Below, piece by piece: positions 5,878-32,572 of a DNA stretch of 33,349 nt (positions are counted from its first letter, which is position 1; each line of letters starts with the position of its first letter). The DNA is from Acidobacteriota bacterium. GTDB taxonomy: Bacteria; Acidobacteriota; Terriglobia; Acidiferrales; UBA7541. The notes beneath the pieces were generated by a model that searched no databases, was not told the origin of the DNA, and saw nothing but the letters and a program-made list of their open reading frames with translations. Location: NCBI GenBank assembly GCA_003223245.1, contig QHYI01000149.1, positions 1 through 33,349 of the forward strand, read 5' to 3'. Both the position numbers and the translations under genes were made by a program.

Positions 5878-8790
5878 TCAAAAGCTGAGCTTGAGGCCAA
5901 TCTGCGCGGCGAAGGGAATGCCTACTGTTGTGCCAGGGCCAAAGAAATCGCCTAAGGCGCCTGCGGGAAAGCGCAACTGGTTTAAGGTAGTAATGGGTTG
6001 AGTTTGCGTGCAAGCGGGATTAAGACAGAAGGCGGTGGCGTTCGCGACGCTATTTGCCCGCATCGGCAAAGCAGAAATGTCCGGAACGTAGTTGTTGCCA
6101 GGATTTTGCCGATCGAAAAGATTAAAGAACTCAGCGAAGGGCCGCAGCATGACGCGCTCGCGGAAAATGATGTTCCGGCTGAGGCGAAGGTCCACTTGGT
6201 AGAAGGGCGAACCGCGGAACTCATCGAGCGTGGTCTGGACACCATTGACCACGGCACGATCGTTGGCCACACCATCAGAGTTGACATCGAAAGGCGTGGT
6301 CATCGTAAACGGCCGCGCACTCTCGAATTGCGAAATCGTCGAAGCTTCCAATTGCCAAGGCAACTGAAGAACACCCGCCAGCACGAAGCGATGCCGGATA
6401 TCTTCGCCTGAAGGACCGTGATCTCCCGGGCCGAAAGGGTCGTGAACGTTGGAGACGCCGTTGACGTAATCGAACAGTTCGCCGACCGTTGCGCCCCAGG
6501 TTGTCGCATGAGACAGCACGTAATTCGCCGTTAGCTCGAACCGCTTCGCAAAACTGTGCTGCATCTGGACGGCCAGACCGTTGTAGATGGAGCGGTTGTC
6601 GCTGCGAAAGAGGGAAAATCCCGAATACTCATAACGCCGGTACTGGTGCACTCCCTGCTGATGCTCATAGCTGACGCTCAGCCGCCAATTGTTTCGAAAA
6701 GCGTGTTCGTAGGCGGCGCCGGCCATCAATGCGTACGGCGTGTGGTACTTCGGATCGATCAGCGCGGCTGTGCCGGTGCCGTTCGCGAGATTGAATTTGT
6801 TGACCGCAGTGAAGGCGTCCACCCAGCCGTTCTGCGCCAGATCGTTATAGTACATTCCGACTCCGCCGCGGAGCACAGTCCTGTTTGACGCATGTGGGGC
6901 GAACGCAATCCCCAAGCGTGGCGCGATGGCCTTGCGGTAATCGTGCGGAATCCCGGAAACAACGCCATTGCCCGCGAGTGCGGGATTCACACTCTGGTCG
7001 TGGCCCGAAGCAATAAATAGTCCGAAAGTCGTGTCGTAACGCAAGCCGGCATTCACCGTGAACGAAGAGCTGGCGCGCCAGGAATCTTCGGCGTAGAGGC
7101 CCAAGCGCCGGATACTCTGAGAAAACGAACCATCGGACGGGCCCGTCATTTTGACCGTTGGGCAATTCGGATCGGGAGTGGGAGACGAACAAGTCGCGAG
7201 CACACCGGGATTCGCGACGTAAAAGCTTGGATCTTGGGGATACGTGAAAATTGTCTCGTGGTTGTCGGTAAGTCTTCCTCGAAGAACCGGCTCGTGGATG
7301 AGGTTTATCCCGAAGCGCACATCGTGTGGTCCTGCGATCCGCGAAACGTCGTAGCGGAACTGGTATTTCTGCTGATCGCGCTGAACGGGAAAGGCCGCGA
7401 TAGCGGTAGCAAACTGGTTGTCACCAAAAGTTTCAAGGCCCGAAGTCGCGAGGAAACTTACAGTCAAGGGAAAATTGAAGGCCTCCCCAACCTCGGAGTT
7501 GCGGATTTTGGTGTGATGAAAGCCGCTGGCCTCCAGAGTGAGAGTGCCCAGCCAGGAAGGCGAAAACTGCAATTGGTTGTTGACCAAGACGTTGTAATAG
7601 TTCGAGGTTGTTGTGGCTCCAGTGGATGGCAATGCGCCTTGCTGCAGGAGATCGTTCTGCGTATGGTTGCGGTCGAGCGAGCCGCGAACAAACCATTGGG
7701 AGCGGGAAGATTGCATCCCATCGACGCGTGTAGAAAAAAGCGTGTCGCGAAAGGGAACTGGGACAGAAGATGGGATGGCGCCGATCGAAGACACATTGGG
7801 TAGATCCCCGGCAGCGGCCAACTGGGCAAGCGCATTAAACTCAGAAAGAGACTTCGCGCTATAGGCCACGCTGGCATTCTCATCGACATATTCGTAAGAG
7901 CTGAAGAACCACAGCTTCTTTGCTTTGAGCGGTCCACCAAGCGTGCCGACCTCATTTTGTCGGGAAAAGGGCTGCTTGGGATTCGGCTCGGGGTTATCGA
8001 GGGCGTTTCTCGCGTTCAAACCGCTGCCGCGATAGTAGTAAGAAGCGCTGCCATGCCAATCGTCGGTGCCGCGTCGCGTCGAGATAATGACGCTGCCGCC
8101 GTTGGTTCGGGAAGTATCGGCGCCGAATTGCGAGGTTCGAACGACAAACTCCTCGACCGCTTCCGGCGAGAAATTCTGCAAAAAGCCGCCGATGTAATCG
8201 TCGTTGTTGTCTCCGCCATCGACGGAGAGGTCGACGTTGAGGCCGGAGCTGCCGCCAAAGGAAACGGCGGTGATGCGCGCTTTGGTCGGGTCCGAAGGTT
8301 CGACTGGAGCGGTGAACGGCGCGAGATAAGAAATGTTGGCGAAACTGCGCGAGGAAAGGGGCACTTCGTCCAGGTCGGAAGAGGTGATGACCGTCTTAAT
8401 GGCGCTGCTGGTCGTTTCGATGGGCTGGCTGGCGAGGGAGGGGCCGCGGTCACGCACCTCCACCGATTCCTCGACGGATTGCGGATGCAGCGTGACGACG
8501 AGCAGGGGTTGGCTGCTCACTGCGACCGTCACTGCGGTCGTCTTTTGCGCGAAACCGGCGGCATTCACGGTAACCGTATAACTTCCGGGTTCCAGCGAAT
8601 CGAATCGCGCTTCGCCTTGCACGTCGGCTTTGCCTGAGCGCGATATCGCCAATTTCTCTTGTGTCACTGAAACGTCTGCCCCGGCCACGCGCCCGCCGCT
8701 CGAATCCTGCACGGTCACGAGAAGTGATCCTCTCGGGTTTTGCGCGCACAAGGCAAACGGAAACAGAGCAATGGCTACGGCAAGGCGCAA
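5878..8790 (-). CDS. TonB-dependent receptor, Oar-like, with carboxypeptidase-regulatory domain
   Basis: About 970 residues. After a signal peptide (LAVAIALFPFALCAQ) comes a carboxypeptidase-regulatory-like beta-sandwich (RGSLLVTVQDSSGGRVAGAD... GSYTVTVNAAGFAQ), then a TonB plug (SSDLDEVPLSSRSFANISYL, FGGSSGLNVDLSVDGGDNND, VRTSQFGADTSRTNGGSVII) and a long 22-strand-type barrel ending in IGLKLSF with the C-terminal aromatic residue of outer-membrane proteins. The start is uncertain: TTG at 8788-8790 has TGGAGAA eight bases upstream and gives a compact signal peptide, while a TTG at 8866-8868 would add 26 residues without a good binding site. These receptors import large ligands such as oligosaccharides. 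Upstream of esterase and GH30 on the same strand, so it probably serves that locus. Confidence 0.9.
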   Translation of the reverse strand: MRLAVAIALFPFALCAQNPRGSLLVTVQDSSGGRVAGADVSVTQEKLAISRSGKADVQGEARFDSLEPGSYTVTVNAAGFAQKTTAVTVAVSSQPLLVVTLHPQSVEESVEVRDRGPSLASQPIETTSSAIKTVITSSDLDEVPLSSRSFANISYLAPFTAPVEPSDPTKARITAVSFGGSSGLNVDLSVDGGDNNDDYIGGFLQNFSPEAVEEFVVRTSQFGADTSRTNGGSVIISTRRGTDDWHGSASYYYRGSGLNARNALDNPEPNPKQPFSRQNEVGTLGGPLKAKKLWFFSSYEYVDENASVAYSAKSLSEFNALAQLAAAGDLPNVSSIGAIPSSVPVPFRDTLFSTRVDGMQSSRSQWFVRGSLDRNHTQNDLLQQGALPSTGATTTSNYYNVLVNNQLQFSPSWLGTLTLEASGFHHTKIRNSEVGEAFNFPLTVSFLATSGLETFGDNQFATAIAAFPVQRDQQKYQFRYDVSRIAGPHDVRFGINLIHEPVLRGRLTDNHETIFTYPQDPSFYVANPGVLATCSSPTPDPNCPTVKMTGPSDGSFSQSIRRLGLYAEDSWRASSSFTVNAGLRYDTTFGLFIASGHDQSVNPALAGNGVVSGIPHDYRKAIAPRLGIAFAPHASNRTVLRGGVGMYYNDLAQNGWVDAFTAVNKFNLANGTGTAALIDPKYHTPYALMAGAAYEHAFRNNWRLSVSYEHQQGVHQYRRYEYSGFSLFRSDNRSIYNGLAVQMQHSFAKRFELTANYVLSHATTWGATVGELFDYVNGVSNVHDPFGPGDHGPSGEDIRHRFVLAGVLQLPWQLEASTISQFESARPFTMTTPFDVNSDGVANDRAVVNGVQTTLDEFRGSPFYQVDLRLSRNIIFRERVMLRPFAEFFNLFDRQNPGNNYVPDISALPMRANSVANATAFCLNPACTQTQPITTLNQLRFPAGALGDFFGPGTTVGIPFAAQIGLKLSF

Positions 8791-8966
8791 AAGTGAAATT
8801 CTCCAGAAGGGAGGTCTGAATTCGAGTGGGGCTCTGCATGTATAGAACCGGTCTACGTTGACGTTCAATGACGCTCAGTCCTTTGTAAGGAGGTGGCCCT
8901 TTGGCGGCCCATGCTTCCGCGTACGCCTGCTGGCGATGAGCGCGGCGTTCTACCCCTTCAGTCCAC

Positions 8967-19264: not shown

Positions 19265-21529
19265 TCATTGCGGCTCAGTTTCCACTTGGGGAGAACCCAT
19301 AATGACCGCCTGGTCGTGTTCAAGGGAGCTTCTGCGGAGTTCCTGTGAGCGCTCGAGCGCTTTCTTCGCAAGTTCGTCGCGGCCGAGCTTGTGATAGGCC
19401 AAATAAAGCTGATAGTGAACGTTCCCGTAATGATCCCGTGGGGCGGCCTTTTCGAGTCTGGGAATGGCATTCGCAAATTGTGCCAGGCGCACGTAGGCCG
19501 TTCCAAGCAACTCGCTGGCTTCCGCCAAATCCGGCTGAAGGCGCAAAGCCCGCTGTAGATAGGAAAGAGCTTTTTCGTTCTCCCGGTTCTGCACATACAA
19601 GCGCCCAAGAAGCAGAAGCGCGTGCGTCCGCGTTGGATCGAGTTCCAACGCTTTTTCCAATTCGGTCCGGGCTTCGGCGTCGGAATGATTGTCGAGGTAA
19701 AGCTGGCCGAGCGCTTGGTGAAGTTCCGGCTCATTGGGACGCAACTGCAGAGCGGACTGATATTCTTTGATGGCGCCGTCGAGATCCTGGCGCAGGGCGA
19801 GGCCTTCCGCGCGAAGTTGGTGAGTGCGCCAGGAGTCGGGAAAAGATTCCTCGAGTTGTGCGTAAGCTGCAGCTCCGAGCGCCTGGTAGGTGCGCGCGAG
19901 CCAGTAGCTGGCCTCGGCGTTTTCGCTGTTGACGCCCGGCACCTGCCCCAATGCATCGGCTGCCGGTTCGTACTGCTGCGATTCAAAATAAGTTCTTCCC
20001 AACAGCACGCGCTGCGAATCGGTGAGATGCGTTGCTGTTTTCAGCGAATCGATGCAGCGAGAATAGCGATAGGCTTTGCAGGGATCGTCATTCGAACGTG
20101 TGTCGGCGGCATCCTGCGCTTGCCGCCAAGACAGGAATTGTGCACGAAAAGACTTCCATTCGCTGTCGGAAAGAGCGGTTTCACTGGCGGCCGCGTAGAG
20201 AGCCGCTAATAAAAAGTGCTTTACCGCGCTTTCGGGCTCGTCTTGCTCGCGCGACGCAAGATCCCTTGCCGACCCCGCCGGGAGGTCGATCGAGGGGAAG
20301 CTTCGCTGCAACGCCAAAAATTCAGGAGAGATCTCCCAAGCTTTCACCAAGGATTCGAGTGCTGCGCTCGCCTGGCCTCTCACCAGTTGCAGACTTGCCA
20401 AGCCGAGCCATGCCAGCTCGTTCGAAGGATCGAGTTGAGACTCCAAGCGAAATTCTTTCTCGGCATCGTCCAGCTTTCCGGCGTGCAAATAGGTTTGGCC
20501 CAGCGAGTCATGCAAGCCGGGCTGGCGCGGACCGGCGCTGAGCGCCTTCTGGTATTCCTTCACCGCGTCTTCCCAACGATTGCGCTGAAACAACAGATCG
20601 CCCAGAAAACGGTGGCCCCAAGCTGACTCTTTATACAAACGCGCTCCCCGAAAGGCCAAACTGGCAGACAGATCGAGATATTCGTGACCGAGATGGAACC
20701 AGGCTTCGGACTTGTCCGAATCCAAGGCGGCGGTCTGGCGGAATTCTTCGGCGGCGCTGCGGAAGTCGTCCTGGGCCAGGTAACAGGAAGCCAAAGCCTG
20801 ACGCGCGTCGCGATTCGCGGGATCGAGTTTCAGCGCGTGCTGAAGGTAGGGGACGGCTTTTTCCGGTGAGCCCAGTTTGAGGTAATCCATTCCGACGATG
20901 ACGGTGGGGCCGAGAAGGTTTGGTCTTTCGCGCAGGGCCTTTGCCAGGTGGCGGACTGCGGAGTCGTATTCGAACAGGCTCTGGTAAGCGAGGCCGAGGT
21001 TGACCTCGGCCTCGACTAAACTTGGATCGAGGGCCAGCACTTTCTTGAATTCTTCTTTGGCACGAGCGAAATCCCCCTGCTTAAGGGCCTGCTGGCCGGC
21101 GCGAAAGGATTGCTCGATTTGGGCTTCGGAGGTTTGCGAGGACACGCGACTCGGAATAATCGACGAGACAGCAAGGAGGAGGGCAAAACCCACGTTCGAT
21201 TTTCGAAAAGCCGAGCGAAGCGAGGAGAGATCCTTCGCTGCGCGACCCGGCGCACGTCTTTTTCCAGTGGGAAGAAGGGCGTGCGCAGGAAAAGACCGGG
21301 TCGCTCCGCTCAGAATGACAGGGGAGGACGAAGGGTTTATTGCATCTTGTCGAATGGAGAGCGAGGCGAATAAGGAAGAAAAGCGGCGGCAAGCCGCCCT
21401 TCGAGTCTCAGGGTAAACCGCATCCCAAAGGGTTTCGCGCCAATAACTTGCGAGTCTCAACAAGCGAGCCAGTCCCCTTATTTTGTTGTGTGTGGAACGC
21501 ATGCAAGAAAGGATTGTAAGCGAGGACAT
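19265..21529 (-). CDS. TPR-repeat secreted protein (start uncertain)
   Basis: 754 residues if it begins at the ATG at 21529, but 642 if it begins at the GTG at 21193, which I prefer. The later start gives a hydrophobic leader (GFALLLAVSSIIPSRVSSQ) followed at once by tetratricopeptide repeats: QALKQGDFARAKEEFKKVLA, VNLGLAYQSLFEYDSAVRHL, and at least twelve more to the end (ALLLLGRLYVQNRENEKALS). The extra 112 residues of the long form read through an interspersed repeat (SSPVILSGATRSF...AAKDLSS) and have no domain. The long form would also begin 24 bases after the terminator of the upstream gene, leaving no room for a promoter. Role: protein-protein scaffold in the periplasm or envelope; partners unknown. 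AKKALERSQELRR near the end is a last TPR helix. Confidence 0.8.
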   Translation of the reverse strand: MSSLTILSCMRSTHNKIRGLARLLRLASYWRETLWDAVYPETRRAACRRFSSLFASLSIRQDAINPSSSPVILSGATRSFPAHALLPTGKRRAPGRAAKDLSSLRSAFRKSNVGFALLLAVSSIIPSRVSSQTSEAQIEQSFRAGQQALKQGDFARAKEEFKKVLALDPSLVEAEVNLGLAYQSLFEYDSAVRHLAKALRERPNLLGPTVIVGMDYLKLGSPEKAVPYLQHALKLDPANRDARQALASCYLAQDDFRSAAEEFRQTAALDSDKSEAWFHLGHEYLDLSASLAFRGARLYKESAWGHRFLGDLLFQRNRWEDAVKEYQKALSAGPRQPGLHDSLGQTYLHAGKLDDAEKEFRLESQLDPSNELAWLGLASLQLVRGQASAALESLVKAWEISPEFLALQRSFPSIDLPAGSARDLASREQDEPESAVKHFLLAALYAAASETALSDSEWKSFRAQFLSWRQAQDAADTRSNDDPCKAYRYSRCIDSLKTATHLTDSQRVLLGRTYFESQQYEPAADALGQVPGVNSENAEASYWLARTYQALGAAAYAQLEESFPDSWRTHQLRAEGLALRQDLDGAIKEYQSALQLRPNEPELHQALGQLYLDNHSDAEARTELEKALELDPTRTHALLLLGRLYVQNRENEKALSYLQRALRLQPDLAEASELLGTAYVRLAQFANAIPRLEKAAPRDHYGNVHYQLYLAYHKLGRDELAKKALERSQELRRSSLEHDQAVIMGSPQVETEPQ
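21225..21325. repeat. Interspersed palindromic repeat (ATTCTGAGCG...AGCGAAGGATC type)
   Basis: On the minus strand this reads TGTCATTCTGAGCGGAGCGA at one end and CGCAGCGAAGGATCTCTCC at the other, the ends of a repeat I know from many acidobacterial and other soil genomes, where it is often mistranslated as VILSG...AKDLSS. GCGACCCGG (21242-21250) and CCGGGTCGC (21296-21304) are perfect inverted copies. Inside them CGCACG/CGTGCG and TCTTTTTCC/GGAAAAGA are also complementary but in interleaved order, so only one inner stem can form at a time. It lies in the 5' region of the TPR gene. Confidence 0.7.
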
Positions 21530-21622: not shown

Positions 21623-24600
21623 TCAGAACGTAAACCTCAACGCGAACTGAATGAGGCGCGGGAGATTATACGTGCTACTTACTCGCCCAAAGCTTGTGCC
21701 TCCGCAGCAGTTAGTGTCGGGCGGGTTAAATTGCGGAGTGTTGAAGCCGTTGAAGAACTCTGCCCGGAACTCGGCGCCAAGCCTTTCATCAGGACCAAAC
21801 TTGGTGTTCTTGAAGAACGCAAAGTCGAAGTTCTTCACTCCGTCGTTCCGGATGTTCGGCTCGGTACGCGAATCGGTGCCGAAGCTGTAGTCCGTACCGT
21901 TCGAGTACACAGACGTGTCAAACCATTTAGCGAGGCGTTGATCCAGAGAACCGGAAGTCATGTGCGACAAGCCAGTTCTCGTTGGGCGGCCACACCCCGC
22001 GTTTACTATGCCGGAGTTGCTGAGGAGGCCCGGGCATCCCGCGATGATGATCGGAAAGCCGCGCTGGAAGGTGACGATGGTGTCGACTCCCCATCCGCTG
22101 GCAAGCTTATTGGCTACGCCGGTCAGATTGCTCCCAAACTTCTTGCCCCGCCCAAAGGGCAGGTCCAGAACGGAGCCGAGCACCAAGCGCTGCGGCACGT
22201 CGAAGGCGTCCAGGCTTCGCTCGTTGCGAAGGTTGTAAGCATTGGCGTCATTCCAGCTCACGGGAGAAGCTTCCAACCAATTGATTTCGGAGTTGGTGTT
22301 GTCGATGAGTTTGGAAACAGTATAAGTAGCAAGCACTTGCGCTCCTGCAGCGAAGCGCTTCTGGATTTTCAACTGCATCGAGTGATAAATCGAATTGCGG
22401 TCGTTGGGCTCCGCTATCGACACATCATCGAATTGAGGAAAGGGCAAATCCAACTGAGCTTGCTTCACCTGCAAGCTGGTCCCTACGCCACCTGTCTGCA
22501 CAGGCCCAGTACAGCCTGTGCAATTGCCGGCGAACGGGTTGTTAACCAGTGTATTGAGGGTGGTTACGTCCGCAGCACTCTTGGGGAGAAACTGCGGCGG
22601 CAATTGATCGAGATCCTGATTATGCATGGGCAAGCGTGTTCCCTTGGAGCCAGCATAGGCGATGTCAACAAGCGTATTGCCGGGGAACTGGCGCTGGATG
22701 TCGAAGTTCCATTGCTGGACGTAAGGGGCCTTGTTACCCGCTACGGGCGCTTCCAGGCCGTTGCCTTGCACGACAAGCAAAGCCGCGTTTCTCCCGAACG
22801 GTGGAGTGATTCCGCTCGGAAAGGGGTTGGAAAGAAAATCACGGGGAGTAACGCCATCGGGCTGCGCTGCGTTCCAAGTGGTATTGGCCGAGTTAATGAA
22901 GAGGTTATGGGGTGCATCGTCCCAACGGATATCCACCGGGAGATAAAAGATCCCATAACCGGTTCGGATAACAGTATTTTTATCGAACTGATAGGAAACT
23001 CCGATGCGCGGGCTGACGTTGTTCCAAGAATCGTAGGCCATGCGACTAGGGTGCTGTGAGGACTTAACGAGATCAAAAGCACCCTTGAGATTCGGGAAAG
23101 CCGCTGCGACTGCGGAACTCATGGCTACGAGCGGGCTGGTTTCGTTGGGGTTAAAAACGACGATGCGATTGAACCGTTCGGTCCAATCACCCTGCAAATC
23201 GACGCGGACTCCAAGATTCAAGGTTATCTTTCTGGTGAGCTGATAGGTGTCGCCAGCATAGAGTGCGCCGTACTTGATTTGGTCGGCGGTCCTCGCCGGC
23301 TCGGTTACGCTGCCATTATCGCCAGAGCCGAGCAGGAAGGAAGCAAGGCCGTTCCCCGATGTACCGTTATCCCCTGGGTTGGTGCCGTTGTTGGGGTTTG
23401 CCGCCGTCATCTTGGCGTCGAATTGGAACAAGCCCGCAGGGTCGTTGCTCTGATAATAGTTGTTGCGAAGGAGGCGAAATTCTCCGCCGAATTTAAAGTT
23501 ATTCTTGCCCATTATCTTTGAGAGCATGGGTGTGAAGCTGAACGTGTCATCCCAGGCGCCGATCCCGCTGCCCGTTCCTTGCGAGCACCAACTGTTGTTT
23601 CCCCAGTGGTTATCGCCGGCTTTCTCCGCGACGCACACCGTAGGAATGTGCGTGTAGGTCATCTGGGAAGTTAGAGCCTTCCAGTTCGGACCGAAGGCTG
23701 ATAGATCGATGCCCTGGCTAAGGGGCGTGCGCAGGTAGACGTAGCGCGTGTAGCCCAGATGCAAGTCCACGATGGTCTTCGGTGAAAGAGTGATGGTATC
23801 GCCCAAGGAAACCTGGTGGGCAACCGTATCTTCGGTGCATCGGTCGCTGCAGATATCCTTAAATGGAGCGTCTGGGAGCGACAAGATATGGGAATGCGTG
23901 TACCGTCCAAAAATTCTCTGCCTGGTACTCAAGTTGTAGTCAATGCGCTCATTGTACTGATCGACGTCGCCGCCGGTGCTGAAGCTCTCAGCAAAGTTGC
24001 CGTTGGGGTTGTTCGTTTGGTTGGGCATTGGCCAATAGGACAGAAGCGCAACGGCAGTGGGATCGAGGCGCGCTGGATCGATCACGTTCAGCTTCCCATT
24101 GAAGGAGAATTGCGTCCTGCAGGTTGCGTGGGTCGCATCGCACGGTGTGCCTGCGTTTGCACCCACACCGCTAGTAGTTGGGTCGTAGATGGGAAGCACC
24201 GTGGTCGTGTCGCTTGACCCGATTTGAGAAAAGTCCCCGCCGCGCTCCGCTGCGGTCGGAACCCACGTTGTCAGAATGCTTCCCTTGCGCTGCCGAAAGC
24301 CCTCGTAACTCGAGAAGAAAAACAGCTTGTCCTTAAGAACTGGGCCGCCCACATTGGCGCCAAATTGATTTTGGGTAAAAGGCGGGCGCGGGACGCCGCT
24401 TCCGTTGGCGAAGAACTCATTGGCATTCAGCACCTTGTTGCGCAAGAATTCATATGCCGAGCCGTGGAACGTGTTGGTGCCGGACTTGGTTGAGAGGTTT
24501 ATGACGCCGCCGGCAAAACGGCCATACTCGGGGCCGAGATTATTGGTCTGGACTTTGAATTCCTCGATGGCATCCTGCGTGGGAATCACGGTAACTACGT

Positions 24601-25255
24601 TCAGATACGCTCCATTGGTGGGCACGCCGTCGATCAGGATCTGGCTTTGTCCGGCCATACCCCCGCCAATTTGAAAATCTCCCAAAGCGAAAGGATTGGC
24701 CCCGACCGGATTTCCCGTTGAAGAATTCCCGCCCGAGGGCTGACCCTGCGGCACGACTCCCGGCACAAGCTCGACGAGCGCCAAGGGGTTGCGGCCGTTC
24801 AAGGGCAGCTCGGTAACGTCGCGCTGTTCCACCACTTGCCCCAGCGAATTCGTTTCCGGCTGGAGCAGAGGCGCTTCGGAGGTCACCTCAACGGTTTCGG
24901 TCACGGCCCCCACCTGCATCGTGAGGTCCACCTTCAGTCCGCTTTCGATCTCCACGAGGATAGGTTGGCGAACCACCTTCTTAAAGCCGCTTTTCTCCAC
25001 CTCCACCTTGTAGCGGCCAGGCAAAATGTTCACGAAGGTATAGTTTCCGGAAGAATCGGTCTGTATGTTGTGCTTTTCATTGGTGCCTAAATTGGTGAGC
25101 GTGACAGTAGCATTGGCAATGGCAGCGCCGCTGCTATCGGTCACAATTCCCGCGATGGTGCCGTAAACGTTCTGCGCAAAACTTCGCATACCTGAAAATG
25201 CCAACAAGAAGAGAGCCACGGAAAAGGCAACCCCAAACTTTCTTAGATGAAACAT
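21623..25255 (-). CDS. TonB-dependent receptor, Oar-like, with carboxypeptidase-regulatory domain
   Basis: 1210 residues from ATG at 25255, chosen because GGAGG lies six bases upstream and a signal peptide follows (FGVAFSVALFLLAFSGMRSFAQ). Residues about 30-115 form the carboxypeptidase-regulatory domain (GTIAGIVTDSSGAAIANATV, VNILPGRYKVEVEKSGF). The plug follows (EQRDVTELPLNGRNPLALVE, GQSQILIDGVPTNGAYLNVV, GPEYGRFAGGVINLSTKSGT), then a large barrel that ends in LIQFALRFTF. Longer than the first receptor by about 240 residues. Family role: import of large ligands through the outer membrane. It has its own promoter and terminator, so it is a single-gene unit; its ligand is unknown. Confidence 0.93.
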   Translation of the reverse strand: MFHLRKFGVAFSVALFLLAFSGMRSFAQNVYGTIAGIVTDSSGAAIANATVTLTNLGTNEKHNIQTDSSGNYTFVNILPGRYKVEVEKSGFKKVVRQPILVEIESGLKVDLTMQVGAVTETVEVTSEAPLLQPETNSLGQVVEQRDVTELPLNGRNPLALVELVPGVVPQGQPSGGNSSTGNPVGANPFALGDFQIGGGMAGQSQILIDGVPTNGAYLNVVTVIPTQDAIEEFKVQTNNLGPEYGRFAGGVINLSTKSGTNTFHGSAYEFLRNKVLNANEFFANGSGVPRPPFTQNQFGANVGGPVLKDKLFFFSSYEGFRQRKGSILTTWVPTAAERGGDFSQIGSSDTTTVLPIYDPTTSGVGANAGTPCDATHATCRTQFSFNGKLNVIDPARLDPTAVALLSYWPMPNQTNNPNGNFAESFSTGGDVDQYNERIDYNLSTRQRIFGRYTHSHILSLPDAPFKDICSDRCTEDTVAHQVSLGDTITLSPKTIVDLHLGYTRYVYLRTPLSQGIDLSAFGPNWKALTSQMTYTHIPTVCVAEKAGDNHWGNNSWCSQGTGSGIGAWDDTFSFTPMLSKIMGKNNFKFGGEFRLLRNNYYQSNDPAGLFQFDAKMTAANPNNGTNPGDNGTSGNGLASFLLGSGDNGSVTEPARTADQIKYGALYAGDTYQLTRKITLNLGVRVDLQGDWTERFNRIVVFNPNETSPLVAMSSAVAAAFPNLKGAFDLVKSSQHPSRMAYDSWNNVSPRIGVSYQFDKNTVIRTGYGIFYLPVDIRWDDAPHNLFINSANTTWNAAQPDGVTPRDFLSNPFPSGITPPFGRNAALLVVQGNGLEAPVAGNKAPYVQQWNFDIQRQFPGNTLVDIAYAGSKGTRLPMHNQDLDQLPPQFLPKSAADVTTLNTLVNNPFAGNCTGCTGPVQTGGVGTSLQVKQAQLDLPFPQFDDVSIAEPNDRNSIYHSMQLKIQKRFAAGAQVLATYTVSKLIDNTNSEINWLEASPVSWNDANAYNLRNERSLDAFDVPQRLVLGSVLDLPFGRGKKFGSNLTGVANKLASGWGVDTIVTFQRGFPIIIAGCPGLLSNSGIVNAGCGRPTRTGLSHMTSGSLDQRLAKWFDTSVYSNGTDYSFGTDSRTEPNIRNDGVKNFDFAFFKNTKFGPDERLGAEFRAEFFNGFNTPQFNPPDTNCCGGTSFGRVSSTYNLPRLIQFALRFTF

Positions 25256-25373
25256 CTTTTTCCTCCACGAGGTCCCTAGCAAAATCAATACAAATCACCC
25301 CGCCGATCGCACCAATCAGCAGCAAATCAGTTTTCTTTATGCAAAGCAGAAGAAGCCCGACCCAGTGGGGCAT

Positions 25374-25483: not shown

Positions 25484-27250
25484 CTAGGCTTTTGACCAGC
25501 CGCGGTTGGCTAACTGCCCCATCCCTTCCTTGAGGGTAACGAGTTGATTGCAGGAGAGTTGCTTGAAAGTTTCGTGGAGTCCGTTAGGCCAATACACGTC
25601 GATATCGGCTGAGGCAGAGTTCCCTACACCGAAATGTAAGCGAGGGTCGTTGCACGAATAAAAGCTGGATTGGCTCAAGACTGCTTGCGCCTGGGTTTTG
25701 CCGCCGTAGTGGGCAAGCACCCGGGCTCCGATGGCGCTTCGATTCGATTTTGTCCCTTCCAACTTCACTTTGATCCAGTTGGCTTTCCCGCTTAGGTCAT
25801 TGCGCAATAGCGAAGGGGGCTCGTTGAGATTGACGATCAGGATGTCGATGTCCCCATCGTTGTCGAAGTCTCCAAAAGCGCATCCTCGGCTGCAGTGTGC
25901 GGCCGCCACTCCCGTTCCCGCTTCCTTGATAAGTTCTTCAAACACACCTTTGCCCAGATTCCTGAACAGAGCACGAGGAGTTTTGAAGGGGTATTGCGTC
26001 AGCGTTTTTTCCACCTGGGGATAGACGTGACCGGTTACCATGAACAGGTCCGGGAGACCGTCATTGTCGAGGTCTACAATGCCGGCTCCCCAGCACACGT
26101 AACGAGTTTCCATCCCGAGACGTGACGACCCCGTGGCATCCTCAAAGTTGGCCTTCCCATCGTTGTGATAAAGGATGTTGGCGTCGTCGGCAAAATGCGT
26201 CTTGAAGATATCGAGATGCCCATCTAAATCGTAATCGCCGACTCCGACCCCCATTCCGGCCTGCTCCATGCCGTCGTCGCTCAGGGCCACGCCGCGTATG
26301 ACTCCTTCTTCGCGGAAAGTCCCATCATGGTTGTTCATAAAGAGAAGACTGGAAGTGGAGTCGCAGGCGACATATATATCCTGCCATCCATCTTCATCAA
26401 AATCCGCCGCGACAACGGTCATGCCATAAGTGGGTGTGCCCTTCGAAATGCCGGCCTGCTGAGTTACGTCGGTGAACGTCCCGTCGCCGTTGTTTCGATA
26501 AAGAGAATGCTTGCCCGTCCCCAAACCCCGGGGGCCGCACTCAACGGGAACTCCTTTCCACCGGCAGTTCGGGTTTTCGCCAGGGGCGGCGGCATTTTCG
26601 AAAGAGAAACGAACGTAGTTGGAGACAAAAAGGTCCAAGCGCCCATCCCTGTTGTAGTCCACAAAAGTGCAGCCAGCTCCAAACCTTGGTTGATCGTTCC
26701 ATAGGCCGGCCGCCTTGGTTACATCGGTGAACGTGCCATCGCCGTTATTGCGGTAAAGCGTGTTCTGACCGAAATTGGTACAAAAAATGTCGTCAAAGCC
26801 GTCGTTGTTGTAGTCTCCAACGCAGACTCCGCAGGCCCAACCGATCGCCCGCAAGCCCGCTTTGTCCGTAACATCTGTAAATGTCCCGTCGCGGTTGTTT
26901 TTGTACAGCCGATTGGTGGTCCCCTCAGGGGCACCTCCGAGACGCGTGCCGGATAGAACAAACAGATCCATCCAGCCATCATTGTCGTAATCAATGAAGG
27001 CACAGCCGCATCCTGTTGATTCCACGATGTACTTCTTGATGTCTAAGTCGCCGTAGATCACCGGCGCGTGCAGACCTGCGGGAGCCGCAACGTCGATGAA
27101 ATGCGCGTTGAACGGACGCCCTGAGGGCGCGGGCCTTGGCAAGGGCTTAGCGGTGTGGGTCGAAACACCCTGCGCTAGGACGCGGTCAGCTTGTACTGAC
27201 AGCGCGGCTCCCATGCCAAGTTGGAAGAACCTCCGACGGGTAAAAATCAT
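25484..27250 (-). CDS. CRTAC1 family protein: FG-GAP/VCBS repeats with ASPIC/UnbV domain
   Basis: 588 residues from ATG at 27250 (TTG and GTG lie directly before it in frame). The N-terminus FTRRRFFQLGMGAALSV has a twin-arginine motif, so export by Tat is likely. Seven FG-GAP/VCBS blades carry calcium-binding cores such as DYDNDGWMDLF, DYNNDGFDDIF, DYNRDGRLDLF, DFDEDGWQDIY, DYDLDGHLDIF, DLDNDGLPDLF and DFDNDGDIDIL, giving a beta-propeller. The C-terminal 100 residues form the ASPIC/UnbV domain (SAIGARVLAHYGGKTQ, LHFGVGNSASADIDVYWPNG). The family is abundant in Acidobacteriota and Planctomycetes; it is extracytoplasmic and probably binds proteins or carbohydrates, with no enzyme activity proven. 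It follows the LuxR-type regulator gene on the same strand after about 230 bases. Confidence 0.9.
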   Translation of the reverse strand: MIFTRRRFFQLGMGAALSVQADRVLAQGVSTHTAKPLPRPAPSGRPFNAHFIDVAAPAGLHAPVIYGDLDIKKYIVESTGCGCAFIDYDNDGWMDLFVLSGTRLGGAPEGTTNRLYKNNRDGTFTDVTDKAGLRAIGWACGVCVGDYNNDGFDDIFCTNFGQNTLYRNNGDGTFTDVTKAAGLWNDQPRFGAGCTFVDYNRDGRLDLFVSNYVRFSFENAAAPGENPNCRWKGVPVECGPRGLGTGKHSLYRNNGDGTFTDVTQQAGISKGTPTYGMTVVAADFDEDGWQDIYVACDSTSSLLFMNNHDGTFREEGVIRGVALSDDGMEQAGMGVGVGDYDLDGHLDIFKTHFADDANILYHNDGKANFEDATGSSRLGMETRYVCWGAGIVDLDNDGLPDLFMVTGHVYPQVEKTLTQYPFKTPRALFRNLGKGVFEELIKEAGTGVAAAHCSRGCAFGDFDNDGDIDILIVNLNEPPSLLRNDLSGKANWIKVKLEGTKSNRSAIGARVLAHYGGKTQAQAVLSQSSFYSCNDPRLHFGVGNSASADIDVYWPNGLHETFKQLSCNQLVTLKEGMGQLANRGWSKA

Positions 27251-27481
27251 CACCAAAGGATTTTAGGATTGCTCTCGGTGAAGCGCAAACGTAGTAGTAA
27301 GCGTGAGAAATTGCCGCGATGCCTCTCGGCACGGATTTCGGGAGGGTGCAGAAATCACCGCAACGATTTCATTGGCGAAGGGTGTACGAAGCTGTTGACT
27401 GCGTGAGTCGTGCCGGGAGTGGGCATCGGCTCCCCACTTCCGTCGCTCTTCTTTGGAATCATGAAAGAGATTGTGGAACGT

Positions 27482-28207
27482 TTACGCGTTTAAGACGAAA
27501 CCGCTGGCGCGGATTACGTCAACCGCTTCACTTCGGCTCTCGGCGTCTACCTGCTTTAGAATTCGATGAATGTGGTTTCTTACCGTAAACTCAGACAGAT
27601 TCAGGCGTGAAGCGATTTCCTTATTGGTCAGACCCTTGGCTACGAGTGCGACCAATTGCCGCTGGCGCAACGTAAGTTCGGGTTTCGAAGGCTGGCCTTG
27701 AGAAGAGGGCTCCTTGGCCGTCTGAGCGACGAAGCGGAATAGCCTCCCGCAAAGTTGCGAAGGGCAAACTGCCTCGTCCCGAAAAACAGCGCGCACGGCA
27801 CCTACGACATCCGTAGCCGAGGCGTCTTTCATCAAGAAGCCGGTTACCCCGGCCCGAATGGCATCCATGAATTGTCTTTCGTCCGGGTCCAGCCCGATCA
27901 GGATGACCCTGAAACCCAGTTGCCCCATGCTTTCAAGAGTGAAATTCACGGGAAGCCAATTGGTCTGGAACGAACCGACAACCAGCACGTCGCAGTTGGA
28001 ATCCAGTATTTCTTGGGCGCCTAGATCGGCTTGTCCGCTTTGCCCGACAACCATGAGGTCGGAGCGCTTGCGAAAAAGACGAACCAGGGTTTCACGCAGC
28101 AGACGATTTTCTATCAGCAGGAATACTCGAATTGTTTCACCGGGCACAGGAGCGCTCATAAGGGCCTTTATGGCTTGCAATAATGAAATTGTTGGGGAAC
28201 TCGCCAT
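27482..28207 (-). CDS. LuxR/NarL-type regulator with degenerate receiver domain
   Basis: 241 residues from ATG at 28207, or 225 from ATG at 28159, where IRVFLLIENRLLRE then follows after nine residues; neither has a strong ribosome site. The receiver fold (about 26-145) keeps the conserved Lys in FLMKDAS (Lys127), but the strand that should carry the phosphoacceptor reads CDVLVVGSF, with Gly78 where Asp is expected, and only one acid remains in the first acidic pocket (IEN). The LuxR helix-turn-helix is intact: LTLRQRQLVALVAKGLTNKE, IASRLNLSEFTVRNHIHRIL. It should bind DNA as a dimer without classical phosphorylation. It has a strong promoter of its own and may control the CRTAC1 gene downstream or the TonB receptor. 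Confidence 0.88.
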   Translation of the reverse strand: MASSPTISLLQAIKALMSAPVPGETIRVFLLIENRLLRETLVRLFRKRSDLMVVGQSGQADLGAQEILDSNCDVLVVGSFQTNWLPVNFTLESMGQLGFRVILIGLDPDERQFMDAIRAGVTGFLMKDASATDVVGAVRAVFRDEAVCPSQLCGRLFRFVAQTAKEPSSQGQPSKPELTLRQRQLVALVAKGLTNKEIASRLNLSEFTVRNHIHRILKQVDAESRSEAVDVIRASGFVLNA

Positions 28208-28575: not shown

Positions 28576-28597
28576 CTAAGACCAAGCTCGGTCTTAG
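28576..28597 (-). terminator. Hairpin at the end of the vWA-like gene cluster
   Basis: CTAAGACC (28576-28583) and GGTCTTAG (28590-28597) form a perfect 8-bp stem with a 6-base loop, and the stop codon of the last gene lies inside the stem. No T tract follows on the minus strand, so it may be an inefficient terminator or an mRNA end stabiliser. Confidence 0.4.
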
Positions 28598-29157
28598 GAT
28601 CCACGGAAGCATTCGATCAGCGAATCCGTGGTTACGCCATTGAAGGGGATACGACAGACGTTTGCGTGCTGTTGTTTAAGCCATGTCTCCCACTGAGCGA
28701 CTCGCGCCAAGTATGCGTCTTCGTCAGAAGCGTCCGCGCGATTGGGGGCAGGAAGCATCGCCACCCTTACGCCTTTGAGGTTCAAGAGTAAGTCGCGCCG
28801 GGCGCTGGGCAAATTGGGGAAACTCGAGACAATCAGGAAAACATGGTCCGCATCGAGCACTCCAGCGGAAGAATAAAAACTCAATGAACCTACCACGTCT
28901 CCGACCCTAGCCCCGGGCGCGAATCGCTGCATATTCTCGGCACATTCATTCAATAACGTGGAAAAATCTTGAGCTGGGGAGTCCATGGCCTTGACCAACC
29001 GCGGAGTAAATTCCAGCGGAGGTATCTGTAACGGAATGGCAGTTTCGTCCCGCAAGTCGGCCCAAGTCACTGTGACGGGGGGCTGCCAGTCGCGGGCGGC
29101 CTTGTTCAACGTGGCTGCCACGGTTTTGAGGATCTCCGGTCGTGCCGTGTCGGGCAT
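28594..29157 (-). CDS. vWA-like protein without MIDAS (degenerate paralogue)
   Basis: 187 residues from ATG at 29157. It aligns by eye with the preceding protein: AARDWQPPVTVTWADLRDET matches the neighbour's AQREWQPPVEILWSRIQTAS, VFLIVSSFPNLPSARR matches LVIVSDFMEDLPRGKR, and RVAMLPAPN matches RVLLLHRPG. However, it lacks the N-terminal strand with DxSxS, and the late MIDAS Asp is Ser (SSF for SDF), so it should not bind a metal. It has no signal peptide as read. Its start lies 52 bases inside the preceding gene in another frame. Either it is a truncated copy formed by deletion, or it is made by coupling or frameshifting with the first. Function unknown; probably a partner of the lipoprotein. 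Confidence 0.65.
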   Translation of the reverse strand: MPDTARPEILKTVAATLNKAARDWQPPVTVTWADLRDETAIPLQIPPLEFTPRLVKAMDSPAQDFSTLLNECAENMQRFAPGARVGDVVGSLSFYSSAGVLDADHVFLIVSSFPNLPSARRDLLLNLKGVRVAMLPAPNRADASDEDAYLARVAQWETWLKQQHANVCRIPFNGVTTDSLIECFRGS

Positions 29158-29831
29158 GTTTTGAGCGGTAGGGCTACCACCGACACGGCTCCAGCTTCTC
29201 GCAGTGCTTCGCTCCAGCGCTGAATCCGCGCAAGATGGTCAACCAGTGCTAGCGGCGTCTTTTCCGTTCCCGGCCGGTGGAGTAAAAGAACTCGTTCACC
29301 GTTCAGTTGTAGTCGGATTGGGCGCTTACCGCGAGGCAAATCCTCCATGAAATCAGAGACGATGACTAGGTACTTCGGACCGAGAACGCTTTGCCCTTGT
29401 TCTGTTGCCAGCGCCACTGCTCCTGAAATATCCGTATATGCAGACCGCTCGGAACCAGCAGCGGAAGCCCGCACTACAGCTTTCGCGCAGGTCTGCAATT
29501 TGTCCGCCACCTGAGCAGAGTCATCGTTGTCGCGTTTAATAAGGGATTGCTGGAATTGGAAAGGACCACACAGCGGACCTGAAATCAAACTGGCAGTCTG
29601 AATACGTGACCACAGAATTTCTACGGGAGGCTGCCATTCTCTTTGAGCGAGTTCCGATGTTGCCGTGGCGAGTTCCTCAAGTGCCCGCTCATCGTTTACG
29701 AGGGGCGCAAAGCTCTTGCTGAAGTCCACCAGCACGACCACGGACGTACCGGCGGATCGTGATTTATCGACTGAGCACCCTCCCAAGAGGACTGCGACCA
29801 CCGGTAGCAGTACAACGCGCGATTTGGACAT
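29106..29831 (-). CDS. vWA-domain lipoprotein with complete MIDAS
   Basis: 241 residues from ATG at 29831. The beginning VVLLPVVAVLLGGC is a lipoprotein signal with Cys19 as the lipidation site; Ser at +2 predicts outer-membrane sorting by the enterobacterial rule. The vWA domain has all MIDAS positions: Asp36-x-Ser38-x-Ser40 in LVDFSKS, Thr133 in YTDISGA and Asp160 in IVSDFMED. An upstream TTG at 29864 overlaps the stop of the membrane-protein gene by four bases, so coupling is possible, but the lipoprotein signal favours the ATG. The last 16 residues (CPTRHDRRSSKPWQPR) are the out-of-frame reading of the next gene's start and look unnatural, so the natural C-terminus may have been lost. vWA lipoproteins bind protein ligands through the metal; the partner is probably the adjacent membrane protein. 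Confidence 0.8.
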   Translation of the reverse strand: MSKSRVVLLPVVAVLLGGCSVDKSRSAGTSVVVLVDFSKSFAPLVNDERALEELATATSELAQREWQPPVEILWSRIQTASLISGPLCGPFQFQQSLIKRDNDDSAQVADKLQTCAKAVVRASAAGSERSAYTDISGAVALATEQGQSVLGPKYLVIVSDFMEDLPRGKRPIRLQLNGERVLLLHRPGTEKTPLALVDHLARIQRWSEALREAGAVSVVALPLKTCPTRHDRRSSKPWQPR

Positions 29832-29860
29832 GTCGAAGAACATCAATAGCATTGAATGAA

Positions 29861-31666
29861 TCAAGACGCGCTAAGCACCGAGAAGGTCTGACGCTTAGTT
29901 TCTTCCACTCCGTGTAGCGACGGCACTTCGCGGCCGCGCAGCAGGAATGCTGGGGCGGCCAGCGCGAGAGCTACGACCTCGAAACAAAAAGTGACCGCCA
30001 GAAAAATCCTTACACTGAGTCGCAGGACTTCTTCAACGATTGCGAATAGCACGCCGACACAGAGACGAAGCCATATGCGCAGGCCCTTGCCGGTCGCACT
30101 TGCCTGACTTGCCGCAGCGCTCAGCGCACCACAAAGGACAAGGATGAGAATGCAGAATGCCGCCTGGTAGCGAGTCACGCCAACGCGCCAAAGGAGTATG
30201 CCAAACGCGGTGAGAACCATCACGGCTAATAGGACTGCCGTTTTTCGCCTCCACAGCGCCCCCGAAACAATAAATCGCCGATTTCGCGTTCCATCAAGAA
30301 GTAGTTCGCCCCGCGGTAGCAACAATCCCAAGATCAAAAAGCAGGCCGCTAAGCCCGCGGAAACCAGCCATGCAGCCTTTATTCCAATGTAAGGAAAGAA
30401 CGCATAAAGTCCGCTCGCTATGACGATGAAGAGGCTTAGGAGTGTCAACAGGAACCACATCCCAGCCAAGGAGGTGAAGTGATGGGCTTCCGCCGTCGTT
30501 AACTGCCTGGGTGCCACCTCGTCCTCAAGATTCCCCGAGGTCGCTCCGTCTCTCAGCTCCCCGACCGAAGCGGCGAGCGACGTGGTTTCCTGGGCTGCGG
30601 CTTGGAGGTCTCGCTGGATAACCTCAACTTCCTCCCTCAGCCGTCCGGCGCCTCTTCCTGCACGTGCACAGGCAGCATCAAATTTTTCGCGATACCGCCA
30701 CAAGCGTCGTACCAGCGCGGGGAAGTGATCCGCGGACTTGGCGATTCGCTCAAGCGATGCCGACCAGATTGCTCCCAGGCCGAAAAGCACAAGTACAAGA
30801 GTCGCCCCCCAAAGAAAGAATAATGTTCCCTGCTTGATTTGTTGCCCGATCGGCAAGTCAACCAGGGAGTTCCTGCTGGGAGCAACCTGGGAATAAAAGA
30901 AGCCTTCCACGCAGGCCATTACTACCGCGAAACAAGAGGCAATGAGCGGCCAAACCGCAATGCGTGAAGCCTCGTCGGGTGTCGGGCGGCCGGCGGTGTG
31001 CACATATCCTAATCCAGCCTCGACAAGCGTAAGCATGAAGGCGAAAACCAGGTACAGCGGAATACCAAAATAGGTAAGGTCGTGAGGGATGAATCCCAAA
31101 TCGCGCAGGATTTGACCCAGCATTCCTGTATTGACGGAGATCAACGCGATCAGAATCGTGCTCGATACGAACAAACGGGCCTTTGCGGTTCGGAGACTTC
31201 CATGCACCGCAGATAGTTGATCTGCCGTTGGCAGGTTTGGAAAAGCCGGAGTTGCCTTCAACGCAGATTCTGTCAGTTTATTGCCAGCTCGCTCAAAAGC
31301 GCGCTGTAGATCAGAAACACGGGCAAGCTGTGGTTTTAGCTTCTTAGTGATCTTGGAAAACGACGCGAGCGCTGCCTCAAGGCGCGTAAGGCCTTCGGAC
31401 ACGTAAGTGATGCCGGCATTGTCCTTGAAGTCCTCAATCAGCGCTTCAACTGCCCGCCGCCGACGTTCGCGTGCCGCCGACTGCCTAGAGACTAATCGAG
31501 ACAGGTAGGACGCCACTCCTCGCCGCACATTTGTGGTGATCGGATAGAAGAGGAAATAAGCAGGAATTGCGGCAATCGCACTCAATCCAAGAATTGCTAG
31601 AGACCACGCCAGAACACCCCAGAACCATGGGATGTGTTGGGACACAAAGCCAGTGAAGGATTCCAT
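29861..31666 (-). CDS. Large multi-pass membrane protein with coiled-coil segments, family not recognised
   Basis: 601 residues with about ten to twelve membrane segments. An N-terminal pair (WGVLAWSLAILGLSAIAAIP) is followed by a basic stretch (RERRRRAVEALIEDF) and a helical, probably coiled-coil, cytoplasmic or periplasmic part to about 165. A second membrane group spans about 168-310 (LFVSSTILIALISV, VFAFMLTLVEAGLGYV). Then comes a second coiled region (RLREEVEVIQRDLQAAAQET), and a third membrane group from about 425 to 580 (WFLLTLLSLFIVIASGLYAF, AVLLAVMVLTAFGILLW). No enzymatic or transport motif is seen. It is the first gene of the cluster with the two vWA proteins and meets the second with a few bases of overlap at most, so the three probably act together. 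It could be a membrane stress sensor, scaffold or channel; this is open. Confidence 0.8.
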   Translation of the reverse strand: MESFTGFVSQHIPWFWGVLAWSLAILGLSAIAAIPAYFLFYPITTNVRRGVASYLSRLVSRQSAARERRRRAVEALIEDFKDNAGITYVSEGLTRLEAALASFSKITKKLKPQLARVSDLQRAFERAGNKLTESALKATPAFPNLPTADQLSAVHGSLRTAKARLFVSSTILIALISVNTGMLGQILRDLGFIPHDLTYFGIPLYLVFAFMLTLVEAGLGYVHTAGRPTPDEASRIAVWPLIASCFAVVMACVEGFFYSQVAPSRNSLVDLPIGQQIKQGTLFFLWGATLVLVLFGLGAIWSASLERIAKSADHFPALVRRLWRYREKFDAACARAGRGAGRLREEVEVIQRDLQAAAQETTSLAASVGELRDGATSGNLEDEVAPRQLTTAEAHHFTSLAGMWFLLTLLSLFIVIASGLYAFFPYIGIKAAWLVSAGLAACFLILGLLLPRGELLLDGTRNRRFIVSGALWRRKTAVLLAVMVLTAFGILLWRVGVTRYQAAFCILILVLCGALSAAASQASATGKGLRIWLRLCVGVLFAIVEEVLRLSVRIFLAVTFCFEVVALALAAPAFLLRGREVPSLHGVEETKRQTFSVLSAS

Positions 31667-32035
31667 CGGATAGCCCCGTAAGAAGGCTGAGCGTTTCTTG
31701 AGTCTATATACATACGCGGATTAGTGGGTCGGCGGCTATAACATACCGCTCGGCTTGTGGCCAAGCAGTTATCCTCGGCGGCCTCGGCGGTAGCCGCCCA
31801 ATCATAGGAATGTTGTCAGGGCGTCACGAACATAATCTTTGACTCGCGCCGATTCACCTCGAACCTCTCGGAGAGAGGATGCGGAAGGGACAAGCGGCGC
31901 TCGCGCCGATCAGCGTCCATCTCTCGGCTTCGAGATAGGAGTGCGAGGCTTACTACGGTTCACCGTTTGCTCGACAACTAGCGGTTGAAAGCGCAGCCTC
32001 CACACGATAGGCTTGCCTGCGTCGGAGTTGATTCC
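31667..32035. other. Non-coding divergent region
   Basis: 369 bases between the start of the membrane-protein gene and the small secreted-protein gene on the opposite strand. It should hold both promoters. TATATA near 31703-31708 could be part of a -10 region for the minus-strand gene, but no convincing -35 is seen. GGCGG-TAG-CCGCC near 31786-31798 is a short inverted repeat. Minus-strand frames that run through here into 32692 have no protein features. Confidence 0.4.
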
Positions 32036-32572
32036 ATGCGAACGATACTGGTCCTCGTGGTCGTCCTGAACGTGACCCCTGGTGCCCAACAACCCGCCAG
32101 TTTGGAAGATACTTTGGTGTGGATGCACAATTTTGCTGCGGATAACGGAAGCCAGTTCACGGGGCAGAGAAATACGGATAAGGGAGCGTGTAAGCTGGGC
32201 ACCCCAAACTGCGAGCCGCGCCATGATGTGACGACTTTCGACAGTCATGGTTGTCTCGCGACGATAACGTGGTCCGTTGATTTGAACTATAAGGATGTCG
32301 GCACTCACACGTACCACTTTTCGCTGAAAGACCTTGACCCCAATAGCGTAGCTCGGGTGAAAGACAATCCCTTCGAGAATGCCGTAGTTGCGGAAACAAC
32401 GAATAGCGAAAAAAAGGTCGCGGAATCTTTTACTCCGGCGGGTGGGAAGGCCGAAGAAAGCAAACACACCTGGGTTGAACTTGTCTTTGATAACGGAGAT
32501 AACGCCGGACGTTTCGTGAAAGCTTTCAGGCACGCAATTCAACTCTGTGGCGGGAAACCGTCGGTATCTTAG
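32036..32572 (+). CDS. Small secreted protein of unknown function
   Basis: 178 residues from ATG at 32036, chosen because a signal peptide (RTILVLVVVLNVTPGAQ) follows directly; an upstream start at 31985 would bury it. The mature part opens with PASLEDTLVWMHNFA and has FSLKDLDPNSVARVKD in the middle, with VFDNGDNAGRFVKAFRHAIQ and LCGG near the end. From memory this pattern (SLxxTLxWLxxF...F-SLKDLDP...AxRVAKAFxHAIxLCGG) recurs in small exported proteins of Acidobacteriota that have no assigned role. Four cysteines lie in the mature part (GACKLGTPNC, GCLATI, QLCGG) and could form disulfides. It is transcribed divergently from the vWA cluster. Confidence 0.75.
   Translation: MRTILVLVVVLNVTPGAQQPASLEDTLVWMHNFAADNGSQFTGQRNTDKGACKLGTPNCEPRHDVTTFDSHGCLATITWSVDLNYKDVGTHTYHFSLKDLDPNSVARVKDNPFENAVVAETTNSEKKVAESFTPAGGKAEESKHTWVELVFDNGDNAGRFVKAFRHAIQLCGGKPSVS

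Follow-up and report, generated by a model that had tools for sequence, protein, structure and literature searches.

A putative two-gene envelope operon in a subclade of soil Acidobacteria, with its vWA-like lipoprotein gene split by a short deletion in one genome assembly

A 33,349-nucleotide contig of an Acidobacteriota bacterium (QHYI01000149.1, assembly GCA_003223245.1; this whole stretch is referred to as the window) carries on its minus strand three open reading frames of 601, 252 and 187 residues that adjoin back to back. An earlier annotation, made from the sequence alone and called here the sequence-only reading, placed these frames correctly and took them for three genes, encoding a membrane protein, a von Willebrand factor A (vWA) lipoprotein with an intact metal ion-dependent adhesion site (MIDAS) and a second vWA-like protein without it. 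We found that the locus consists of two genes, with the third frame representing the broken-off second half of the lipoprotein gene: the two vWA-like frames are a single open reading frame in all three of the other genomes that carry the locus. Our preferred interpretation, to which we give a probability of roughly one half, is that gene 1 and gene 2 form an envelope operon found in one subclade of a soil Acidobacteria genus, that they encode an orphan membrane protein and a lipoprotein with one MIDAS-bearing and one MIDAS-less vWA-like domain, and that gene 2 is split in the window. The locus comprises the following features.

29861-31666, minus strand: gene 1, encoding a 601-residue polytopic membrane protein.
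29106-29864, minus strand: gene 2, 5' part, a 252-residue frame with a predicted lipoprotein signal, a MIDAS-bearing vWA-like domain and, at its end, 18 residues read out of frame.
29163-29166: gene 2 junction and site of the frame shift; the window lacks 76 bp that each of the three relatives has, equal to about 25 codons and covering the first strand of domain 2.
28594-29157, minus strand: gene 2, 3' part, a 187-residue open reading frame holding the second, MIDAS-less domain without its first strand.
31667-31781, minus strand: upstream stretch, conserved, likely promoter and leader, and the start of the block common to the four carriers.

In the three relatives (loci L014, L015 and L016) gene 2 joins both vWA-like frames in one protein of about 440 residues, read from a single open reading frame at 7830-9155 in L014 (441 residues), ending at 9106 in L015, and at 7803-9149 in L016 (448 residues). 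When the DNA was aligned, gene 2 of the window was found to be without 76 bp that are present in all three relatives, between CCGCT and CAAAAC. The alignment is clean on both flanks of this gap, and the blastn pieces meet at the junction given above. As 76 (3x25+1) is no multiple of three, the reading frame shifts; the upstream frame ends at a stop after its shifted residues, and an ATG inside it opens the downstream frame. A profile of the intact protein hits the window in two pieces (positions 1-230 and 252-441), with 164 of the 187 residues of the downstream frame identical to residues 255-441 of the L014 protein. What had made the locus stand out, an intact vWA copy and a metal-free one in two different proteins, results from this deletion, whether it occurred in the strain or in the assembly. 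A programmed frameshift was considered and ruled out, since the 76 bp present in the relatives are deleted in the window; no slippery heptamer in the right phase was seen by eye at the junction.

The alternative in which the window truly encodes a MIDAS lipoprotein together with a separate MIDAS-less modulator, translated from a new start codon at 29157, is very unlikely. The 187-residue frame is open, has an ATG and shows no relaxed selection, but we reject the three-gene arrangement because all three relatives carry a single, continuous vWA frame. The 76-bp loss also removes the first strand of domain 2, as placed by a poor structure model, so the 187-residue product could not form a complete domain. 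In addition, the first 52 bp read from the start at 29157 lie within the upstream frame, and visual inspection of the sequence before this start showed no ribosome-binding site or Shine-Dalgarno-like stretch. The 187-residue frame is thus probably a frameshifted remnant that is not translated, and the window strain may still produce a shortened lipoprotein with a single domain. The proposal of a separately encoded, metal-free protein that modulates the lipoprotein is not supported, as the intact copies hold this domain in the same chain.

Among codons unique to the window, the first half of gene 2 has 4 nonsynonymous and 13 synonymous changes, and the second half 3 and 17. In neither half are amino-acid changes in excess, suggesting that the split is very recent, that the halves are still functional, or that the deletion is an assembly error. 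In the last case the missing 76 bp would be an assembly or consensus error in a draft genome of 237 contigs, and the living strain would possess an intact two-gene operon, as seen in all three relatives. We regard this as rather unlikely: the remaining bases align cleanly on either side with no further disturbance, and other short insertions and deletions occur in the block. These include 42 bp absent in frame from gene 1 of L015 (14 residues, between predicted membrane segments four and five; L015:6001-7764), approximately 42 bp absent before the L015 start, and approximately 90 bp extra before the L016 start. Short deletions hence recur within the block, in both gene 1 and the upstream stretch of L015.

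The intact gene 2 protein begins with a hydrophobic stretch followed by a lipobox (LGGC, identified by eye), located ahead of the MIDAS residues; GGCS is common to the lipobox of L014, L015, L016 and the window. On this basis the product is predicted to be an exported, acylated lipoprotein. With the Met at codon 12 of the 252-residue frame taken as residue 1, the MIDAS residues have the numbers given in the sequence-only reading, D36, S38, S40, T133 and D160; they are invariant in the three intact copies and kept in the window. At the corresponding places domain 2 has N, P, T, G and S, all five residues being lost. The two domains are homologous (BLASTP E 3e-17, 26% identity over 201 columns; hhalign probability 97%), which indicates that they arose by duplication, with the MIDAS kept in the first and lost in the second. 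The description of the first frame as a vWA lipoprotein with an intact MIDAS therefore stands as far as the lipobox and the five residues are concerned, but the vWA assignment is weak by profile. Similarly, the second copy has indeed lost its MIDAS, but it is part of the same chain in the intact copies and not a protein of its own.

Motif and order of elements suggest that the protein is vWA-like, probably a divergent vWA. A regular expression for this order (strand-DxSxS...T...strand-D), composed after the protein had been seen, was matched by 41 of 20,000 shuffles of the 252-residue protein. It was also matched by 5 of the 281 stop-to-stop frames of at least 150 residues from the window and nine related stretches; the gene 2 protein accounts for four of these, and the remaining one, AILLDTTGSMGE, is a different frame of the DxSxS type. 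Six of the eight Pfam vWA loci of the same genome match the expression as well. With regard to the six-stranded, Rossmann-like fold of the vWA family, the AlphaFold model of the L014 protein has alternating strands and helices twice over, with the first strands at 34-38 and 249-254, but at a low mean pLDDT of 41.6.

Gene 1 encodes a protein with approximately 10-11 predicted membrane segments (Kyte-Doolittle hydropathy windows, grouped by eye), and is 88-90% identical at the protein level in the three relatives. It has two large hydrophilic, helical stretches, one spanning approximately residues 43-165 with a net charge of +12 and the other approximately 304-398 with a net charge of -1. According to the positive-inside rule, positively charged stretches are expected to be cytoplasmic; the 43-165 stretch would therefore face the cytoplasm, and the segment count puts 304-398 there too. 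In agreement with the sequence-only reading, searches of Pfam, NCBIfam, PHROGs, PADLOC and solved structures gave the protein no convincing match to a known family. A weak match to phrog_726 (E 0.0025 over residues 286-373) and sub-cut-off matches of the relatives' gene 1 to coiled-coil-type Pfam families (best CENP-H, E 0.0011) were not taken as indicating relatives. Among known anti-phage defence models, PADLOC gave three weak matches for gene 1 of the window (best E 0.11) and none for the intact gene 2 of L014, solved-structure searches for the pair yielded nothing usable, and no internal duplication was found within gene 1. Any likeness to Zorya ZorA and the MotA-ExbB-TolQ motors is confined to a weak match (E 0.11) in the first helical stretch, residues 55-138; set against this are the 10-11 or so membrane segments counted above and the lack of a significant match.

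The gene 1 and gene 2 proteins were detected in the same 4 of 151 related genomes, all from one genus; profile searches covered the same phylum. For gene 1, this corresponds to 4 of 95 genomes of the order and to 4 of the 36 genomes of the genus included among these. In a class sample of 399 genomes, gene 1 (E <= 0.01) had matches in seven, namely the four carriers and three others at <=17.3 bits, and gene 2 in nine, the four carriers and five others at <=21 bits; these weaker matches were not taken as relatives. A gene 1 search of a phylum sample (396 genomes) matched the window's own genome alone. A gene 1 match at G030:C58 (19.2 bits, E 8.2e-4) was not recovered by profile in the 95 genomes of the order and was likewise not taken as a relative. 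The same three relatives were returned by a scan of genome contigs that is sensitive to close relatives only. Searches of plasmids and phages by tblastn gave no match, nor did a scan of viral contigs with short exact patterns, and the matches listed in a literature search included no work on this gene pair. Every genome having either gene has both (4/151; 4/399), in line with the sequence-only reading, and the two adjoin in all four carriers, each being found only there. Co-occurrence and adjacency support a partnership of the two predicted proteins.

A midpoint-rooted rpoB tree was built for 27 of the 36 genomes of the genus, leaving out G002 and G009, whose loci are partial, and seven genomes without a match. 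The four carriers fall within a six-species group (support 100/100), of which the other members, G032 and G012, do not have the block; both are drafts, estimated to be 95% and 93% complete. A 22-base core of the upstream stretch (<=3 mismatches) occurs once in each of the four carriers and in neither of these two sister non-carriers. A consensus scan gave no sigma-70 promoter in 31667-31781, and its designation as a promoter is thus inferred only. DNA identity among the carriers is 90-92% for rpoB and 86-90% for the block, with dN/dS values of 0.14-0.21 for gene 1, 0.12-0.23 for the first half of gene 2 and 0.14-0.21 for the second. These values fit a block inherited from one ancestor, with some losses, and kept under purifying selection. 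As the carriers are not a clade of their own in most bootstrap trees, losses in G032 and G012, or transfers, are also required.

The block is sharply delimited. Comparison of the window with L014, L015 and L016 by blastn places the upstream edge at 31781, 31778 and 31780, respectively, and the other edge is the gene 2 stop codon, with 54 bp more common to the window and L015 only. The block starts and ends at these points in all four carriers, and the stretches compared around it (window 33 kb, G030 54 kb, G018 35 kb, G024 40 kb) have little else in common. Beyond the block, three things are common to the window and G030: a NUDIX gene, which lies to the same side of the block in both, a 646-bp stretch at a distance of about 7 kb and, about 27 kb away, a LuxR-type gene; for other pairs of block-carrying stretches the common pieces measure at most 474 bp. 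Such a pattern could arise if the block were a small cassette that moves between sites, such as a gene pair of the defence or toxin-immunity type. The other neighbouring genes are shuffled to the same extent, so we do not read the block as proof of a mobile element. A cassette becomes improbable because the rpoB tree groups all carriers and the edges have no paired repeats (no direct or inverted repeats of at least 14 bases pairing the edges in the window, L014 or L016). The identity of the block compared with that of rpoB likewise fits descent, and neither the plasmid, phage and viral searches nor PADLOC, with its weak matches, lends the cassette support.

Several observations weigh against the interpretation of the locus as an operon for a membrane protein and a vWA-like lipoprotein. 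By Pfam, VWA_CoxE matches the window frame with E 0.014 and 15.2 bits against a cut-off of 26.4, and no vWA family is found at E <= 1 for the three intact relatives. When domain 1 was compared by hhalign with 8 vWA domains of the same genome, 20 columns only were aligned, around DxSxS (E 0.0093 as a single comparison, probability 4%; a receiver-domain control gave E 0.13). The AlphaFold models are poor (mean pLDDT 42 for the gene 2 protein and 37 for the gene 1 protein), and a fold search with the gene 2 model gave nothing usable, the best match (E 0.014) being an unrelated protein. The window-unique codons show no relaxed selection in either half of the split gene. Finally, the carriers are no clade by themselves on the rpoB tree, where two changes are needed to account for the block; one change is enough in 6% of 200 bootstrap trees.

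In Bat (Bacteroides aerotolerance) operons (BatA/BatB with MoxR), an envelope vWA protein whose vWA part is membrane-embedded lies beside a membrane protein. Gene 1 and gene 2 have the same kind of adjacency, but here the vWA part belongs to a predicted lipoprotein, and no MoxR or DUF58 gene was found nearby. Neither DUF58 nor any other Bat domain was detected by Pfam in the three frames, in 18 more frames of the window or in 4 frames flanking the block in the relatives. MoxR-type (AAA_3) matches are present in all four carrier genomes, 17 in total, with none of the 17 on the carrier contigs. It would consequently take an ATPase encoded elsewhere for the pair to belong to the Bat or MoxR-vWA type of chaperone system, an option we consider most improbable. 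In the MoxR-vWA ternary conflict systems, the vWA domain is proposed to capture a peptide through its MIDAS, and some members are without the aspartates (PMC7159879). A MIDAS vWA domain and degenerate copies are thus common to those systems and to the present locus, which differs in that the defining MoxR gene is not on the carrier contigs. With respect to vWA-MIDAS proteins in general (Pfam VWA_2/VWA_CoxE), domain 1 is similar in having strand-DxSxS, T and strand-D in canonical order and, in a poor model, helix-strand alternation. It is dissimilar in that gene 2 falls below the Pfam cut-off, its product is a lipoprotein with a degenerate second domain in tandem, and the contig has no AAA+ MoxR gene.

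MIDAS vWA domains bind partner peptides via a divalent metal (PMC7159879). From the motif and the gene pairing, the metal site of domain 1 is most likely where the lipoprotein binds a partner, which may be the membrane protein. In such a complex the gene 1 protein would reside in the inner membrane with its helical regions inside, and domain 1 would use Mg2+ to bind an acidic residue of its partner, for which a periplasmic loop of the gene 1 protein is the most likely candidate. Domain 2 might then provide a structural or metal-independent contact. The pair could work as a lipoprotein-gated or lipoprotein-sensed membrane complex, with the lipoprotein of the window cut down to its first domain. 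That this amounts to a lineage-specific, undescribed envelope complex, in which a lipoprotein with metal-binding and metal-free vWA domains gates, or senses via, a membrane protein of a new family, is a tentative suggestion. If a complex is formed, it would add one more membrane protein family to the partners of metal-dependent vWA domains. The gene model itself is corrected to one tandem-domain protein in place of active and inactive partners encoded apart, and the small orphan gene pair so defined could be given a single operon annotation in genomes of this Acidobacteria clade. The case also illustrates that what passes for an additional gene in a draft genome can stem from a short deletion.

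Other features of the window lie outside the block. A LuxR-type regulator is encoded at 27482-28207 (minus strand; GerE E 6.7e-15), with an N-terminal receiver domain that is barely recognisable (Response_reg E 0.11). Its closest relatives, 72-75% identical, are in G030, on the contig of the block and about 27 kb from it, and in G024, on two other contigs. On the opposite side, a 195-residue frame at 31985-32572 (plus strand) has no Pfam match. In G030, where it lies some 7 kb away from the block, G030:C178 39929-40568 matches the stretch over this frame at 87% identity over 646 bp, so the frame may be a real gene that has moved. Two TonB-dependent-receptor-like outer-membrane proteins (CarboxypepD_reg and OMP_b-brl_4) are encoded at 21623-25288 and 5878-8868 (minus strand), and near these genes are a TPR protein (19265-21529) and an FG-GAP/UnbV_ASPIC protein (25484-27256). 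In another genome of the genus, a NUDIX relative at G018:C275:8866-9252 contains an internal TAG stop.

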